Position numbers and translations under genes: made by a program
Assembly: GCA_009692425.1 (NCBI GenBank)
Contig: SHZF01000008.1
Span: 62,001 to 126,000, forward strand
Length of the DNA: 64,000 nt
Direction: 5' to 3'
Origin: Myxococcales bacterium
GTDB taxonomy: Bacteria; Myxococcota_A; UBA9042
In this document: one piece after another, positions 724 through 61,314 of the stretch
Layout of the letters: the number at the start of each line of letters is the position of its first letter
How positions within the stretch are numbered: the stretch's first letter is position 1
The notes under the pieces: model-generated
Told to the model about the DNA's origin: nothing
Seen by the model: the letters and a program-made list of their open reading frames with translations, nothing else
The model's database searches: none

Positions 724-3015
724 TCAGCAGCCGCAGCCGTACTTGTCCGGGCAGCAGTCGCCAAACGTGTCGCAGGCCGCGTCGCACCAGCACCCGCCCG
801 CGCCCTGATCGGCACACGTGCCCTTGCAACTGTTTGCCTTGTCGTGGCCGCACGGGGCGCAGCCGGACTTCAGGTAGTCGCTGCAGCAGTCCCCGATCTT
901 CAAGCACAGGGCGTCGCACCAGCAGGCGCCGAGGCCCTGGCCGCCGCACTTGCCGAGACACGTGCCGGAGGGAGGCACCTTGCACTCGCCGCCGGTCGCC
1001 GTCGCCGCGCACAGGGTGCCTGGCCCGCAGGTCTTGACGGTCGTCCACATCGACCAGACGACAGCGCCATTGCAGGCATTCTTGCCGTCGCAACTCGCCG
1101 TGCCGGTGCGGCTCTGCAACGCGGTGCTGGCACATTGCCACTGGGTCGTGGCAGCCCCGCACGCCGTTCCGGCCGACTTGGGATACGTCTTGGCCACGTC
1201 GCAACACTCGCCGCTCGTGCACCCGCACTGTGCGGCGAAGCCCTTGCAGCAGTCCTTCGACGCCGTGCACGCCGCGTCGCACCAACACGTACCGTCCTTG
1301 GCCTGGCCGCCGCAGGCCCCGTCGCAGGTGCCGGTCGGACCCACGGCGACGCACGCGGGCAACTGGCCCGAGCCGGTCGCCGTGCACACGGTGTTCGCCG
1401 CACACGACTTGACCGTCGTCCAAGCGCCAACCGCAGCCGTCGTGGGCGAGCACGCGTCTGGACCGGTCCCGGTGCAGCCCGGCGTCGTCACGCGCTGCAT
1501 CACCTTGGCACCTTCGCACTTGTATTCGGTCGCGAGCACGGCATCGCCGCACGCAGTCTTGGCAGGTTTGACGGTTTGTGTCGCCACGTTGCAGCAGGTG
1601 CCCGCCGTGCAGCAGCCCGGGTTGTCCGTGACCGTGCATACGTGTTGGGCGACGTTGCACGCTGCAGTCTTGCACGCGCCCGGGGCGTCGCAGTCTGCGT
1701 CCGACAGGCAGCAGCCCGGCTTTGGCGCGCCGGCGCACGCTTTTGTCGCGCTGCACGCATCGTCGTAGGTGCACGCTTCGCCGTCGTCGCAGAAGGCGCC
1801 CGGGTCGGCGGACCACTGCGTCGGGGACTTCGCCGGCACGCACAAGGCACACTCGTTCGTCGCTGCGGAGTCTCCTGCCACGTAGCACGCACCCGCGATG
1901 AGGCAGGAGCCGGGCTTGACCGCCAGCCCGCACGCGCCGACGGCCGGGTCGCAAGTCGCCTGCTGGCACGGGAGCGAGGCCGGGCAGGTCTTCGCAACGA
2001 TCGTGCACGTGCCCGTCGCCACCGTGCACGAATCGGTCGTGCACTTGTTACCGTCGTCACAGTCTACAGCCTTCGTGCAGCAGCCGGCCTTCTTCTTGAG
2101 CCCGCACACGCCGGTCGCCACATCGCAGTTCGGCAAGTCGCAGGTGCCGGGCGCCGGGCACGCGCTGTCGGCAGTGCAGCACGCGGGCTTGGGGGTCCAT
2201 GCCGTCGTCGAGGCCTTCGACTTGCACACTGCGCACGGCTTGGCGGGCTGGGCCGCGCCATCATTCCAGCACGCCCCATCGATCAGGCACGACCCTGCTT
2301 GCAGCGCGTGCGCACAGGCGCCGCTGCCGGCGGTGCATGAATCCGTGGTGCAATCCGTCCCGTCGTCGCAGACCTTGGCCTTGCCCACGCAGAGGCCCGC
2401 CGTGCATTTGTCGCTGACGCTGCAAGCGTTATCATCATCGCAAGCGCCACCTGCGGGCTTGGCGTGCACGACGCAGCAGCCCGTCTCGCACGCGACCTCG
2501 TCGCACGGTCCCGGGGCCGCGCCGCAGTCGGAGTCTGCCGTGCACGCCTGGAGGTCGCAGGTCGGCACCGCGTCCGCGTCGGGATTGGCGCCGGCGTAGG
2601 AGTCCATGCCGGAGTCGGTCGGCGCTCCCGCTTCGCCGTCGCCTGCGCCTACCTTGGTGTCGGGGCCGCGCGAACCGTCGAGCGCGCTGGGCACCGTGAC
2701 GTCTCCCTTGACGCCTTCTGCCGCGTCGGCTCCCGGCGGCGAGCCCTCCTGGCCGGGGTCCGCGCCGAAGTCTCCGCGCGCTCCACTTCCCGCGCCGGCA
2801 TCGATCACCTTCTGCTGCCCAGCGTCTGCCTTCGGGGCGCGGAACGGCGAGCCATCGGTGGCGCCAACGTCAGTCGCAAAACGCGCGATGCGCACCTCGG
2901 CACCCGAAGGCGCAACGGGACCGGCGTCGAGCCCATAGCTGCTGCACCCGGCCACGAAGGCCAAGGCGGCGAGCGCCCGTGTAGCGGCAGCGACTGCTGT
3001 ACGCGATGGCTCCAT
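724..3015 (-). CDS. Cys-rich lipoprotein with CDDG repeats and three somatomedin-B-like domains
   Basis: This is a predicted outer-surface lipoprotein of 763 aa. The chosen ATG (3013-3015) gives a short charged n-region, a hydrophobic stretch and the lipobox LAFVAGC. An in-frame ATG at 3081 would put 22 non-signal residues ahead of it. After a low-complexity Asp/Gly/Ala spacer (about residues 25-170) come repeats of the form CDD.N.CS.SD.C....C, common in myxobacterial surface proteins. The C-terminal third holds three copies of a pattern like C..(A/K)CG.Q....CWCD..C....DCC..., which matches the eukaryotic somatomedin-B fold signature. These alternate with two units containing W.TVK(S/T)C. Function is unknown; adhesion or matrix binding is an inference. 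Confidence 0.85.
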
Positions 3016-3144
3016 CCGTCGCCCCGAACCCGGCCCTGCTCCCCACAGGACGTGAGACGATACCGGATCGCAAGGTCGCATGGCTACAGAATTCTCCGTC
3101 GCAGGCCCGCTGGACGCTCGGATCGGGATACGCGAGCCCCGCCC

Positions 3145-5404: not shown

Positions 5405-5444
5405 TACGTGGCCATTCGGCTGCGGCCGTGCGGCTGTGCCGGTT

Positions 5445-5499
<55 letters not shown>

Positions 5500-5517
<18 letters not shown>

Positions 5518-6177
5518 ACCCACCGGACCGGGCCTCGGGCCCGGTTCGCGTTTTTGAGTGCCGCACGCGTGCGGATCGTGGGCCTCCTTGGAGTTCGGGA
5601 TGTCTGGGCGGTGTGGAACGTCCGGCCGCCGCAAGATGTCGGGGCGCCACTGGCCCGGCGAGCCCCGTTCGAGGCCGCGCAATGGTACCCGGCTCTGCCG
5701 CCACGAGGTGAGGCGCGCCCCGTCACCTTCCCCGTCGCGCCGCTCCAAGCTGACGCCCACAGGCACCTTCGGTCCCGGCCGTGCCCGCAGCCACTGCGCG
5801 ACGTCGATCGCACTGCCGCGCCACAAGAGTTCGAGTCGCCCGGCCCGATCGGGCAAGCGCATGCCGGGAACCTGGATCGCAGCGAACTGCCCGAGCGGCG
5901 TGCACAGCGCTACCTCGCCTGCCGCCACCCACGGCCGCGCCGGTCGCAGCAGGGGCGCCGCCGTGCCGTTCGGCAGTAGCAGTCGGAGATCGGCCAGCGC
6001 GACCGGTGTCGGCCCGAGGTTGGCCAGTTCGACATACTCGCCGGCCCGGTCGTCGAGCAGCAGCGGCGCGGGTTGCACCTCCGTGATCCACAGCCGCGGG
6101 GTAGGCCCAGGCTGTGCGAACCCGAGCGCTGGCCCGAGCCCAATCCATACAAGCGCCGCAAGCACAGTGCTTCGCAT
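5500..6177 (-). CDS. Exported lamin-tail-domain protein
   Basis: The 225-aa product begins with a clear signal peptide (MRSTVLAALVWIGLG then PALGFAQ), so it is exported. Residues about 28-125 match a lamin-tail (LTD) domain: W.TEVQPAP..L.D..GEYVELANLG.TPV.L.DL..LL. These are beta-sandwich modules often found in secreted proteins of myxobacteria and Bacteroidetes. The C-terminal 60 residues are basic and low in structure. The stop codon lies inside the T-loop of the tRNA on the other strand, so the last part is antisense to the terminator and tRNA. AAGGAGAC supplies the ribosome-binding site, and a consensus sigma-54 promoter lies about 60 bases upstream. Substrate or partner is unknown. Confidence 0.8.
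5527..5555 (+). terminator. Rho-independent terminator after the tRNA
   Basis: A perfect 8-bp stem, ACCGGGCC (5527-5534) and GGCCCGGT (5538-5545), closes a TCG loop. TCGCG and then TTTTT (5551-5555) follow. It would end the rplM-rpsI-tRNA transcript. Confidence 0.75.
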
Positions 6178-6236
6178 CGAAGTCTCCTTTTCCGCACGGG
6201 TCGACCCGCAGGCCGCGGCGGATGTCGATGCCTACT

Positions 6237-6252
6237 TGCAAGATGCGTGCCA
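6237..6252 (-). promoter_or_regulatory. Sigma-54 promoter (-24/-12) of the lamin-tail gene
   Basis: On the minus strand the sequence reads TGGCACGCATCTTGCA, an exact match to TGGCACG-N4-TTGCW with GG and GC separated by 10 bases. Initiation about 12 bases further on would give a leader of about 45-50 bases before the ATG of the exported lamin-tail protein. The rest of the intergenic stretch 6178-6558 holds the divergent sigma-70 promoter and no other feature I can support. Confidence 0.75.
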
Positions 6253-6451
6253 GCCATGGTGTCCTGGAATTGCTCAGATCTTTCGGTCACACCTGCCGGG
6301 TCCGTCTCGCACGCCGGTGAGACGCCGCGCGGGGGTGAGACGGCGATCGATGGACGTGACGCCCGGCTGCGGGGCGATCGCGACGCCAGACGAGACGGCG
6401 CGCGCCACCGAGGACATCGGCAAACCGTGTAAAGCAAGCCCACCCCGCGCC

Positions 6452-57174: not shown

Positions 57175-57204
57175 AGGATAGCGATGCCGCGCCCCGGTTG
57201 TCAT
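57175..57204 (-). promoter_or_regulatory. Sigma-70 type promoter of the Cys-rich lipoprotein
   Basis: On the minus strand, ATGACA (57199-57204), an 18-base spacer and TATCCT (57175-57180) lie about 38 bases before the GTG. Confidence 0.5.
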
Positions 57205-57316
57205 TTTGGCACACCCCGGCGGCGATCGAAGCGGCTCGTGCGCCAGCCGGACCGCTGATGAACGGCGACGCTGACACGATCGGCCTGACATTGCTAGGTT
57301 TTCTCAGTCCGCGATC

Positions 57317-57332
57317 TGGCACGCCCTTTGCT
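57317..57332 (+). promoter_or_regulatory. Sigma-54 promoter (-24/-12) of the type II secretion operon
   Basis: TGGCACGCCCTTTGCT matches the sigma-54 consensus at every defined position, with GG (57318-57319) and GC (57330-57331) 10 bases apart. Initiation near 57343 gives a leader of about 90 bases before the gspC GTG. It requires an AAA+ enhancer-binding activator, not seen in the window. Confidence 0.85.
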
Positions 57333-57432: not shown

Positions 57433-58425
57433 GTGGAAACCCTGCTCAAGCGCCACTTCTGGCTGCTCAACCTCGCCGGCCTCGGCCTGGTGGCGTGGCT
57501 GGGCGCGGGCACCTTGAGCGCGCTGGGCGGCGTGCTGCTCGCCAACGCGACCGGCCGCATCGAGACGAAGGAGACGCTGACCGCGCTACAAGGCGAAACC
57601 GCGCTGCAGAAAAAGCTACGCGACGGCCGTGTGGGCTCGCTGGCGGGGGCCGAAATGGCGGGGCGCACGCCGTTCCTGATCGAGGAAGCCGCGCCGGAAC
57701 CGATCGACGAGCCGCCCGCAGAGCCGCCGCCTGAAGTGCCCGCCACGCCGCACGAGCCGACCTACGACCCGACGACCCTGCCGATCAAGCTGCTCGGCAC
57801 GATGGTCGTCAGCCCGGAGACGTGGTCGTCGGCGACCCTCGAACTCGAGCGGCAGAACCAGAAAATCGTCGCGCAGGGCACCGAAATCCTCGGCGGCCAG
57901 GCCACGGTCTACGCGATCCGCCGCAATTACGTGGTGCTCAAGGAAGGCGACAAGCTCACGATCGCACCGCTCTACCCGCGCGAAGGTGGCCCCTCGACGT
58001 CCGAAGCGACCCCGCCGCCCTCCCCACTGCCGACACGCTCCGAGCCCGAGCGCCAGCGCCTGGCCGATGCCGGGCCGAAGGTGGACGGCGTGCGCAAGGT
58101 GTCGGAGACGGCGTACCAACTCGACCGCAGCCACGTGAACGACAAGCTCAAGGACCTGGCGTCGCTCGGCCAGCAGGTGCGCGTGGTGCCGAACTACCGC
58201 GGCGGCAAGTACGACGGCGTGCGGCTGATCGGCATGAGCGACGAGAGCCTGTTCAAGCAGATCGGCTTCGGCAACGGCGACATCCTGATGGCCGTCAACG
58301 GCGACCGCGTCGACTCGCCCAACAAGGCGCTGTCGCTGTACGAGGCGCTCAAGAACAAGTCCCGCCTGACCGTGCTGCTGGAGCGCGACGGCATCGCCAA
58401 GACCCTGCGCTACACCGTGCGCTGA
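57433..58425 (+). CDS. gspC: Type II secretion system inner-membrane connector GspC
   Basis: GspC links the inner-membrane platform to the secretin. The 330-aa product has one N-terminal membrane helix (about residues 8-30), a Pro-rich linker, a homology region near 115-175 (LPIKLLGTMVVSPETWSSATLE), and a C-terminal PDZ-like domain near 225-325 (GVRLIGMSDESLFKQIGFGNGDILMAVNG). The GTG at 57433 follows GGAGAGG. Any start before about 57343 would precede the sigma-54 transcription start. The order gspC-gspD-gspE-gspF matches classic T2SS operons. Confidence 0.92.
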   Translation: METLLKRHFWLLNLAGLGLVAWLGAGTLSALGGVLLANATGRIETKETLTALQGETALQKKLRDGRVGSLAGAEMAGRTPFLIEEAAPEPIDEPPAEPPPEVPATPHEPTYDPTTLPIKLLGTMVVSPETWSSATLELERQNQKIVAQGTEILGGQATVYAIRRNYVVLKEGDKLTIAPLYPREGGPSTSEATPPPSPLPTRSEPERQRLADAGPKVDGVRKVSETAYQLDRSHVNDKLKDLASLGQQVRVVPNYRGGKYDGVRLIGMSDESLFKQIGFGNGDILMAVNGDRVDSPNKALSLYEALKNKSRLTVLLERDGIAKTLRYTVR

Positions 58426-58446: not shown

Positions 58447-61314
58447 TTGGTTCACCGCATCTTTCCGATCCGACGCCGCGCCCGCACCGTTGGCGCCGCC
58501 GCGTGGCCCGCCCTGGCCGGCGTGTGGCCCGCCCTGGCCGCCGTGTGGGCCACCGTGCTCGCGGCGGGGTCGACCCTGCCGCGCCCGGCCGCCGCGCAGG
58601 AGGCCACGGCAGAGCGTTCGATCCCGGTAACGGCAGGCAAGGGCACGCTGCGCAAGAAGGCCAAGGCCGACGCGATTCAGGCCGGCAGCGCAAAATCGGG
58701 CACGTTTCGCCGCAAGAAGACGCCATCGCTCGACCCCAGCTACGACCCGGCCCAGGCGACCGAAGCGCTCGACGCGCGCGGAGAACCTGCGCCGCCGTCT
58801 GACCCCGGTCCCGGTCGCCGCTTCGAGGCGCCGCCACCGCCCGCACCGGGCGATCGGGCAGCGGACCGCAACGGTGCCCCGGGCACGGCGGCCACCGACA
58901 ACGCCGACAAGAAGAAGATCGAGGACCTCGTCACCTTCAAGTCGAACTTCGAAAAGGACCTGAAGTGCAAGCGCCTGCCGCTGAACGCGAAGGTGACGCT
59001 CGACTTCCAGGAGGCGCCGATCGAGTCGGTCATCAAGCTGATGTCGTGCTGGACCGACCGCAACTTCCTGCTCGCCACGCAGAAAAGAGGGGGCAAGATC
59101 ACGATCCTGTCGCCGCAACCGGTCAGCGTCTATGAGGCCTACCGGGCGTTCCTGTCGAGCATGATGGTTAACGGCATGGCCATCACGAAGAAGGGCGAGT
59201 TCTACCACATCGTCGATACCACCGACGCGCGCGGCTCGGGCGCCGAAGTGTACGGCGGCAAGGGCAACGTGCCCGACGACGACAACATCGTGACGCGCAT
59301 CCTCCGGCTCAAGCACCTTGACGCCAAGGACGTCGAGCAGTTGATCAGCAAGTTCAAGTCCAAGAACGGGGACGTCTTCTTGTACCCGCCGACCAACGCG
59401 GTCGTCATCACCGACTCGGGCTCGATCATCCGCCGCATCCAGAAGTTGCTGCTCGACTTCGACGTCCCGCTCGGCGCCGAGAAGATCTGGCTGCGGCCGG
59501 TACAGCACATGGATGCCGCCGAACTCGTCGAGAAGGTGCAGGCCGTGTTCGGCGAACAGGGCCGGGGACCGCAGAGTCCGGGCGGCGGGCCCCCGAGCGC
59601 CAAGGTGACGATCTCGAAGATCATCGCCGACGATCGCTCGAACCAGTTGATCCTGATTGCGACGCGGGCGAACTACCTCAAGGTCGACGCGCTGATCCGC
59701 AAGCTTGACGTGCCGATCCCGGGCGAGGGCGCCGTCCACATCCACCACCTCGAGAATGCCGACGCCGAAGACGTGGCGCAGACGCTTGGTTCGCTGGCCC
59801 AAGGCGGTGGTGCGGCGGCGCGCGGCAAAAAGGGCGCGGCCAAGGGGGCGAAGGCGGGCGGTTCGAGCGCGACCCTTTTCGAGGGCGACGTGAAAATCAC
59901 CGCGCACAAGGCGACGAACGCGCTGGTCATCGAGGCGAGCCTGAAGGACTACCTGAGCTTGCAGAAGGTCGTCGCCCAACTCGATCGGCGCCGCAAGCAG
60001 GTCTATGTCGAAGCCGTCATCATGGAAATCTCGACGACGAAAAACCGCCGCACCCAACTGTCGGGCTCGGCGGGTACGACGTTCGACATCGGCGGCGAGA
60101 CGGTGCCGTTCCTGTTGGGCCTCGGCGGACTCGGCATCGGTGGCTTCGATCTCAGCCAACTCAACTCGGGCGGCTTCGCGGCCGGCATGCAAGGGCCGCT
60201 CGTCAACGTGAACACCGGCACGACGGCGAACTCGGCGGTGCCGGCGGGGGCGACGCTGTCGATCCCAGCGTTCGGCTTCATGGTCCAGGCCATCCAGGAG
60301 AATTCCGACGTCAACGTCCTGAGCACGCCCCACATCCTGACGCTCAACAACGAGGAGGCCGAAATCACGGTGGGACGCAAGGTGCCATACCGCTCGCAGA
60401 CCTCGGGCGGCGGGCTGGGTGGCCTGGGTGGGCTCGGCGCGCTCGGCAGCCTCGGTTCTTCGGCGCTGAGCGGCTTGGGCGGGCTCGGCGCGCTTGGCGG
60501 GGCGCTCGGCGGCATGGGCGCCACAGTGCAGCACATCGACGTGGATCTGAACCTGAAGATCACGCCGCAGATCAACGAGTCGGACTTCATCAAACTGAAA
60601 ATCGACGAGCAGTTGGACGAGGTGGAGGCCATCGACCCGAACCTGGGGCCGACGACGTCGAAGCGCAAGGTGTCGAATACGGTCGTCGTGCGCGATCAGC
60701 AGCCGGTCGTGGTCGGTGGCCTCGTGACGGATCGCGAGTCGTCGGGCGTGGCGAAAATCCCGGTGCTGGGCGATCTGCCGCTCATCGGCATGTTCTTCCG
60801 CAAGACGACCAAGACCATCGAGAAGAAGAACCTGATGCTGATCGTGGTGCCGCACATCATCAAGGACCCGAGCGACCTCGAGCGCCTGCACCAGCAGAAG
60901 ATGGACCAGATTCGCGACTTCGCCGAGGAACTGGCGACGAAGCAGAAGGAGTACCAGGGCAAGGTCGACTTCCGCAAGAAGGCGGGATTCTTGGAGAAGA
61001 TCTTTGGCGCCATCGACAAGATCGCGAGCGAGCGCAAGCTGACGGAGAAGGCCTATTTCGACAACGCCGACGTCGATCTAGTCGGGCCACCCGATGACCA
61101 CGATCTGGAGTACGACCCGTTCGCGGCGCCGCGCAAGGACGGCAAGGTCAAGGCCAGGGCAGGCAAGACAGTAGACGGCGACGACGACAGCGAGCCCGAG
61201 GTCGATTCGATCGATCTGCCTGACGCCGACCCGACGCCGACCGCGCCCAGGGCCGGCGCCAGCAAGTCCGCAAGCCCCGCAAGCAAGGGCGCCCGCAAGG
61301 AGCCCAAGCCGTGA
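58447..61314 (+). CDS. gspD: Type II secretion system secretin GspD
   Basis: GspD forms the outer-membrane secretion channel. The 955-aa precursor starts at a TTG preceded by GGAG. It has a signal region with a short tandem duplication, then a variable Lys/Ala/Pro stretch, N0 near residues 175-260 (VTLDFQEAPIESVIKLM), and N1-N3 with LKHLDAKDVEQLI and VHHLENADAEDV-type motifs. The secretin core at about 540-790 has GRKVPYRS and a Gly/Leu-rich stretch, and VVVRDQQPVVVGGLVTDRES near 750. The C-terminal tail of about 110 residues is charged and low-complexity. It overlaps gspE by GTGA. Confidence 0.95.
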   Translation: MVHRIFPIRRRARTVGAAAWPALAGVWPALAAVWATVLAAGSTLPRPAAAQEATAERSIPVTAGKGTLRKKAKADAIQAGSAKSGTFRRKKTPSLDPSYDPAQATEALDARGEPAPPSDPGPGRRFEAPPPPAPGDRAADRNGAPGTAATDNADKKKIEDLVTFKSNFEKDLKCKRLPLNAKVTLDFQEAPIESVIKLMSCWTDRNFLLATQKRGGKITILSPQPVSVYEAYRAFLSSMMVNGMAITKKGEFYHIVDTTDARGSGAEVYGGKGNVPDDDNIVTRILRLKHLDAKDVEQLISKFKSKNGDVFLYPPTNAVVITDSGSIIRRIQKLLLDFDVPLGAEKIWLRPVQHMDAAELVEKVQAVFGEQGRGPQSPGGGPPSAKVTISKIIADDRSNQLILIATRANYLKVDALIRKLDVPIPGEGAVHIHHLENADAEDVAQTLGSLAQGGGAAARGKKGAAKGAKAGGSSATLFEGDVKITAHKATNALVIEASLKDYLSLQKVVAQLDRRRKQVYVEAVIMEISTTKNRRTQLSGSAGTTFDIGGETVPFLLGLGGLGIGGFDLSQLNSGGFAAGMQGPLVNVNTGTTANSAVPAGATLSIPAFGFMVQAIQENSDVNVLSTPHILTLNNEEAEITVGRKVPYRSQTSGGGLGGLGGLGALGSLGSSALSGLGGLGALGGALGGMGATVQHIDVDLNLKITPQINESDFIKLKIDEQLDEVEAIDPNLGPTTSKRKVSNTVVVRDQQPVVVGGLVTDRESSGVAKIPVLGDLPLIGMFFRKTTKTIEKKNLMLIVVPHIIKDPSDLERLHQQKMDQIRDFAEELATKQKEYQGKVDFRKKAGFLEKIFGAIDKIASERKLTEKAYFDNADVDLVGPPDDHDLEYDPFAAPRKDGKVKARAGKTVDGDDDSEPEVDSIDLPDADPTPTAPRAGASKSASPASKGARKEPKP
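58504..58545 (+). repeat. 21-bp tandem duplication in the GspD signal region
   Basis: Two 21-bp units (58504-58524, 58525-58545) differ at one base and encode WPALAGV and WPALAAV in the hydrophobic core. A partial third copy (tgggcc) follows. Confidence 0.85.

Follow-up and report, generated by a model that had tools for sequence, protein, structure and literature searches.

The consensus sigma-54 promoter in front of a lamin-tail-like gene of an uncultured myxobacterium carries repeated upstream copies of the word TGAGAC, and the same combination recurs before comM, before radC and before a multi-copy structured RNA. The joint explanation that we consider likely is a sigma-54 regulon read by a TGAGAC-binding bacterial enhancer-binding protein (bEBP), comprising the lamin-tail-like gene, comM, a radC-HhH unit and the RNAs, with the T2SS under another bEBP. 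The features around the promoter, in coordinates of the window (the whole stretch of 64,000 nucleotides that was analysed), are as follows.

5500..6177, minus strand: lamin-tail-like protein, exported by its look, 225 aa
6184..6189, minus strand: AAGGAG, ribosome-binding site of the lamin-tail-like gene, read directly
6237..6252, minus strand: sigma-54 core promoter TGGCACGCATCTTGCA, with -24 GG and -12 GC; predicted +1 at about 6226
6304..6309, minus strand: related motif CGAGAC, at about -57 from the site
6318..6323, plus strand: enhancer motif TGAGAC, at about -71 from the site
6336..6341, plus strand: enhancer motif TGAGAC, at about -89 from the site
6391..6396, plus strand: related motif CGAGAC, at about -144 from the site

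The original prediction of a consensus sigma-54 promoter on the minus strand is confirmed by the reading of TGGCACGCATCTTGCA, which fits TGGCACG-N4-TTGCW with the proper spacing of its GG and GC elements. The ATG at 6177, directly behind the AAGGAG, lies 59 nt past the site, matching the claim that an exported-protein gene begins about 60 bases away (the signal peptide was judged by eye), and the predicted +1 agrees with the proposed start near 6226. Exact matches had been called rare in random sequence, and the window indeed contains two, at 6237 and at 57317, against a shuffle mean of 0.04, with none of 100 shuffles reaching two; the second is the T2SS promoter, whose consensus had correctly been said to be the same. 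Across the genome (4.94 Mb) the exact pattern TGGCACGN4TTGCW occurs 24 times, and a control pattern read backwards occurs once. When up to two mismatches are permitted, the excess in the window is gone (14 sites versus 14.5 expected), so that only near-perfect sites are informative.

That imperfect sites, with one or two mismatches, are no commoner than chance could be taken to mean that the consensus at 6237 is itself a functionless coincidence. Against this reading, the position, the core and the enhancer are kept: a sigma-54-like site (score at least 0.89, no more than 150 nt from the start) with at least one TGAGAC or CGAGAC within 150 nt upstream precedes the lamin-tail gene in 15 of 20 relatives, compared with 0.075% of dinucleotide shuffles, and we give coincidence next to no credence. 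The five upstream regions that fail, some of them because of uncertain starts or contig edges, were counted against the preferred explanation: L051 has four motifs and an altered -12 element, L055 has a site without a motif, and the starts of L062, L063 and L065 are uncertain or lie at contig edges. In the lamin-tail upstream regions of many genomes the motifs are spaced by about 10 bp (for example, at -81, -71 and -61), and motif positions concentrate between -50 and -110. Judged by its sequence, the lamin-tail promoter has the upstream enhancer sites of a sigma-54 promoter. As a separate observation, TGAGAC is strongly under-represented across the window (6 copies versus 23.8 expected in shuffles), as if the enhancer word were shunned away from promoters, and two of the six copies precede the lamin-tail promoter.

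The gene product is named lamin-tail-like because its match to Pfam LTD (PF00932) is far under the cut-off and does not reach the curated threshold (E 0.03; 15.1 bits versus 34.3). The predicted model shows a beta sandwich at about residues 20-165 (pLDDT 71.5 for the whole model, mostly 88-97 in blocks 51-130), and lamin tails make up most of its best structural matches (Z 8.2-9.2, rmsd 2.4-3.6 over 95-107 residues), which also include a DUF4876 protein (Z 9.1). The predicted fold is thus the Ig-like fold of lamin tail domain proteins; unlike those proteins, this one is bacterial, is exported or a lipoprotein, and bears a C-terminal extension in addition to its sub-threshold LTD match. Homologs are present in 21 of 22 family genomes, this one included; in each relative the main match is 42-54% identical across its matched part. 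The N-termini of the homologs resemble, by eye, signal peptides or lipoprotein signals. The named relatives belong to uncultured Myxococcales, Deltaproteobacteria or Proteobacteria MAGs. A scan of viral contigs found no relative, a sequence search of solved structures using the lamin-tail alignment found no match, and no literature was found on lamin-tail proteins together with ComEC. Two further observations concern this end of the window. The 3' end of the lamin-tail frame, at 5500, overlaps a tRNA-Met gene on the opposite strand (5444-5522) by 23 nt, and because homologs elsewhere also seem to end over a tRNA (with C-termini such as DLNPRPNDYESFALTT), this tail-to-tail synteny may be conserved. 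Positions 724-3081 encode a large Cys-rich exported protein with weak matches to Somatomedin B and to a Dictyostelium repeat.

The second exact site of the window lies in the following setting.

57199..57211, plus strand: palindromic enhancer TGTCATTTTGGCA of the gspC promoter, at -118; shared by all 22 genomes, including this one
57317..57332, plus strand: second exact sigma-54 site, before gspC (T2SS)
57433..58425, plus strand: gspC (T2SSC/PDZ domains), found in 22 of 22 genomes
58447..61314, plus strand: gspD secretin, predicted start (TIGR02517, E 2.6e-137)

From the two sites together, a single sigma-54 regulon had been suggested that unites exported proteins with the T2SS responsible for their export. 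Both promoters are indeed genuine and conserved (in all 22 genomes the gspC site has a score of 0.96 or more), one of them precedes an exported protein, and control of the cell exterior has been tied to sigma-54 (PMC3162934). Their union in a single regulon is contradicted by the enhancers. All 22 gspC promoters carry the palindrome TGCCA-WWW-TGGCA, at -116 to -120, and none of 21 lamin-tail upstream regions does, while TGAGAC is found in 1 of 22 and 16 of 21, respectively, both sets including this genome. The palindrome having been defined on these gspC sequences, the count of 22 of 22 is descriptive; the argument is carried by the absence of the palindrome from the lamin-tail set and by its near-fixed position. 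No enhancer motif common to the two promoters was found; since the enhancers are distinct, conserved and mutually exclusive, two bEBPs are expected rather than one export regulon. The group of the lamin-tail promoter, moreover, holds the cytosolic proteins ComM and RadC as well as RNAs, and a single regulon of exported proteins and their exporter is highly unlikely. These two exact sigma-54 cores clearly should not be pooled as one regulon, their enhancers keeping them apart. At two exported-protein promoters (L023 and L024), GATTTTTTC-R-R-CATGTG-like words were seen by eye in the upstream DNA, some 100 nt from the exact sites, and these represent a possible third sigma-54 enhancer.

Manual sorting of the 24 exact sites of this genome (G000) placed nine before one and the same non-coding sequence, seven before proteins that look exported by eye, two before T2SS/pilin genes and two before genes of cytosolic DNA-processing proteins (ComM and RadC), with four left without assignment. 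Given the RNAs, ComM and RadC, export is not the common feature of the lamin-tail promoter's group. TGAGAC occurs 36 times in the 7.5 kb upstream of 25 sites (the 24 exact sites and one further RNA site, 300 nt each), compared with four times in 63 kb of the same loci. It accompanies 15 of the 24 exact sites, namely those of the nine RNA copies, ComM, RadC, the lamin-tail-like protein, two exported-looking proteins and one locus without assignment; the nine sites lacking it include those of gspC and a pseudopilin. Relaxed TGGCRYG sites were considered as members and rejected: they number 18 more, of which 13 were taken as loci, 12 of these having no TGAGAC within 200 bp.

A composite pattern of enhancer and promoter gave 50 matches in 22 family genomes, versus one for the control, and these merge manually to 44 distinct promoters, 8 in G000 and 36 elsewhere. 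Outside the family there was no clear enrichment (7 matches versus 3 for the control in 30 genomes). By manual sorting, the 36 promoters of the relatives precede 8 lamin-tail, 5 RadC, 5 HRDC, 1 ComM, 3 Uma2 and 2 subtilase genes, 2 uncharacterised exported proteins, 3 RNAs, 5 assorted genes in G008 and 2 others; four of the HRDC and Uma2 assignments were made because the translated N-terminus resembles that of scanned members, with no scan of their own. Besides the lack of clear enrichment outside the family, two points from this survey were counted against the preferred explanation: several of the enhancer-bearing promoters of G008 precede toxin-antitoxin-like, HTH and AAA genes, and NCBIfam does not identify the HhH protein as ComEA. 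An HhH-type frame follows RadC in the three genomes examined (G002, G012 and G015), with weak Pfam support in the two that were scanned, and in several genera (L144:1550-2600, L120, L130 and L138) a second, exported frame of this type overlaps the RadC gene or directly adjoins it. Behind the TGAGAC promoter, RadC and the HhH-type frame may form a conserved unit of two genes. A single promoter call has in this way become a regulon that can be tested and whose enhancer word is defined.

The occurrence of comM behind a TGAGAC promoter in G000 and G002, and of radC in G000 and five relatives, raises the question of natural competence. Published accounts list both genes among the promoters of CRP-S competence regulons (PMC5809987) and, for Vibrio cholerae, link both to competence, with comM being QstR-dependent (PMC6237807). 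By sequence, the regulon described here would show the co-regulation of comM and radC that marks a natural competence regulon, and its HhH and HRDC proteins fit such a role. Many of its members are not competence genes, however, and a sigma-54 site with the motif was found at 0 of 18 comEC and dprA loci (8 genomes; about 1.5 kb around the domain match). Because comEC and dprA lie outside it, the regulon is not filed as a competence regulon, and that it constitutes a complete one is rather unlikely. It differs from the CRP-S and TfoX-QstR regulons, with which it has comM and radC in common, in excluding comEC and dprA and in its use of sigma-54 and a predicted bEBP rather than CRP-Sxy. The TGAGAC regulon may nevertheless overlap a competence regulon and work like one. 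The literature searched yielded nothing on competence in Myxococcota and nothing on sigma-54 control of genes of the comM/radC type.

The most numerous members are the RNA genes, which occupy ten loci in G000 (L003, L006, L007, L008, L012, L016, L017, L018, L022 and L040) and encode a structured, stand-alone RNA of about 225 nt. A search with the RNA model returned 11 places in G000; of these, one is a fragment at a contig end with no upstream DNA, and the promoter was present wherever upstream DNA exists. Divergent homologs were found in G010, G014 and G016, and in G016, too, the RNA is multi-copy. A sigma-54-like site and TGAGAC precede each of the 17 copies that have upstream DNA, a combination seen at 45 of 20000 random positions. 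For nine G000 copies and one each from G010, G014 and G016 it was the site that first led to the copy, and for these it is therefore not independent evidence; RNA sequence alone led to C43 of G000, C18 of G010 and three G016 copies. The distance from site to anchor is fixed at 19 nt in G000 and 13-14 nt in the other genomes. Regarding the scope of these searches, the model built from G000 copies (R1) finds G000 only and the one from the other genera (R2) misses G000, MAFFT misaligned the two RNA subtypes, and about 140 of the hundreds to thousands of first-look candidates per genome were scored, so that absence elsewhere carries little weight.

The first stem of the RNA begins at about the predicted +1, and the structure comprises about ten helices with 95.8% of cells paired. 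Ten pairs are changed on both sides, versus 3.0 in shuffles (0 of 500 reaching this) and at most 3 when the structure is slid, the structure being derived from the same alignment as was used for this count. The copies stand alone between unrelated genes. We judge it very unlikely that the element past the sites, instead of belonging to an RNA gene family, represents a small-protein gene or mobile repeat with a chance promoter. Contigs do break at copies in G000 and G016, and most G000 copies contain an open frame. Opposed to this, the sequence past +1 is conserved from copy to copy although the flanks and promoters vary; the covariation points to an RNA; the variable columns fall about equally on the three codon positions (15/20/18, of 43 each), so that the RNA is not coding and the small-protein gene was rejected; and phages, plasmids and viral contigs gave no match, on which ground a phage or plasmid element was also rejected. 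In G016, contigs C51, C59, C116, C143, C180, C184 and C202 end inside RNA copies, indicating that copies within this genome are near-identical though their flanks differ; to judge from the sequences, either homogenisation or strong constraint may account for this.

No covariance model of Rfam 15 matched the RNA (seven copies searched to E 1, four loci to E 10); the four-locus search gave only two sub-threshold matches, both outside the RNA. No literature was found on structured Deltaproteobacteria RNAs with sigma-54. The nearest working analogue would be Qrr of Vibrio, under sigma-54 and LuxO, described as several paralogous stand-alone sRNAs with sigma-54 promoters and a bEBP that act redundantly or additively (PMC10162802; PMC5568312). 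The genes found here likewise appear to be paralogous, stand-alone RNA genes, each with a predicted sigma-54 promoter and putative bEBP sites; unlike Qrr, the RNA is about 225 nt long, has ten loci and another sequence and structure, is preceded by the enhancer GGTGAGACC and is co-regulated with comM and radC. Pxr, an sRNA of myxobacteria, has an apparent sigma-54 promoter, two or three described stem-loops, a location near nla19 and tandem paralogs in Cystobacter, as described (PMC5568312). In being myxobacterial, in having paralogs and in its predicted sigma-54 promoter the new RNA is like Pxr, and as far as that description goes it is set apart by its ten or so helices and its scattered copies.

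A sigma-54 holoenzyme waits at its core site until a bEBP activates it. In the model that we propose, which extends the promoters, enhancers and RNA structure read from the sequence to transcription, bEBP and function, such a holoenzyme would wait at the 6237-6252 core and drive the lamin-tail-like gene once a predicted bEBP, bound to repeated GGTGAGACC-type sites 50-150 bp upstream, loops to RNA polymerase. The same enhancer and promoter would drive comM, the radC-HhH unit, two exported proteins and the ten RNA loci in this genome and, in relatives, HRDC/HTH_40, Uma2 and subtilase genes as well, while the T2SS operon would use sigma-54 through its separate palindromic enhancer and hence another bEBP. 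The multi-copy RNA might act as a dosage-boosted regulator, as Qrr RNAs do.

From its members, the TGAGAC programme is most likely one of a DNA-uptake/recombination type, predicted to operate in uncultured lake myxobacteria. A structured RNA family absent from Rfam 15, with about ten loci in one genome and representatives in three genera, tied to DNA-recombination genes and a surface protein, is arguably of greater interest than the promoter that led to it. More tentatively, and with somewhat less than even confidence, we suggest that this uncultured Myxococcota lineage has a sigma-54 programme for DNA uptake and recombination in which a GGTGAGACC-reading bEBP has as its main output, by number of loci, a new class of homogenised, multi-copy RNA, made together with ComM, RadC, HhH and HRDC proteins and a surface lamin-tail protein. 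If this is true, competence-like DNA handling would have its own dedicated RNA component.
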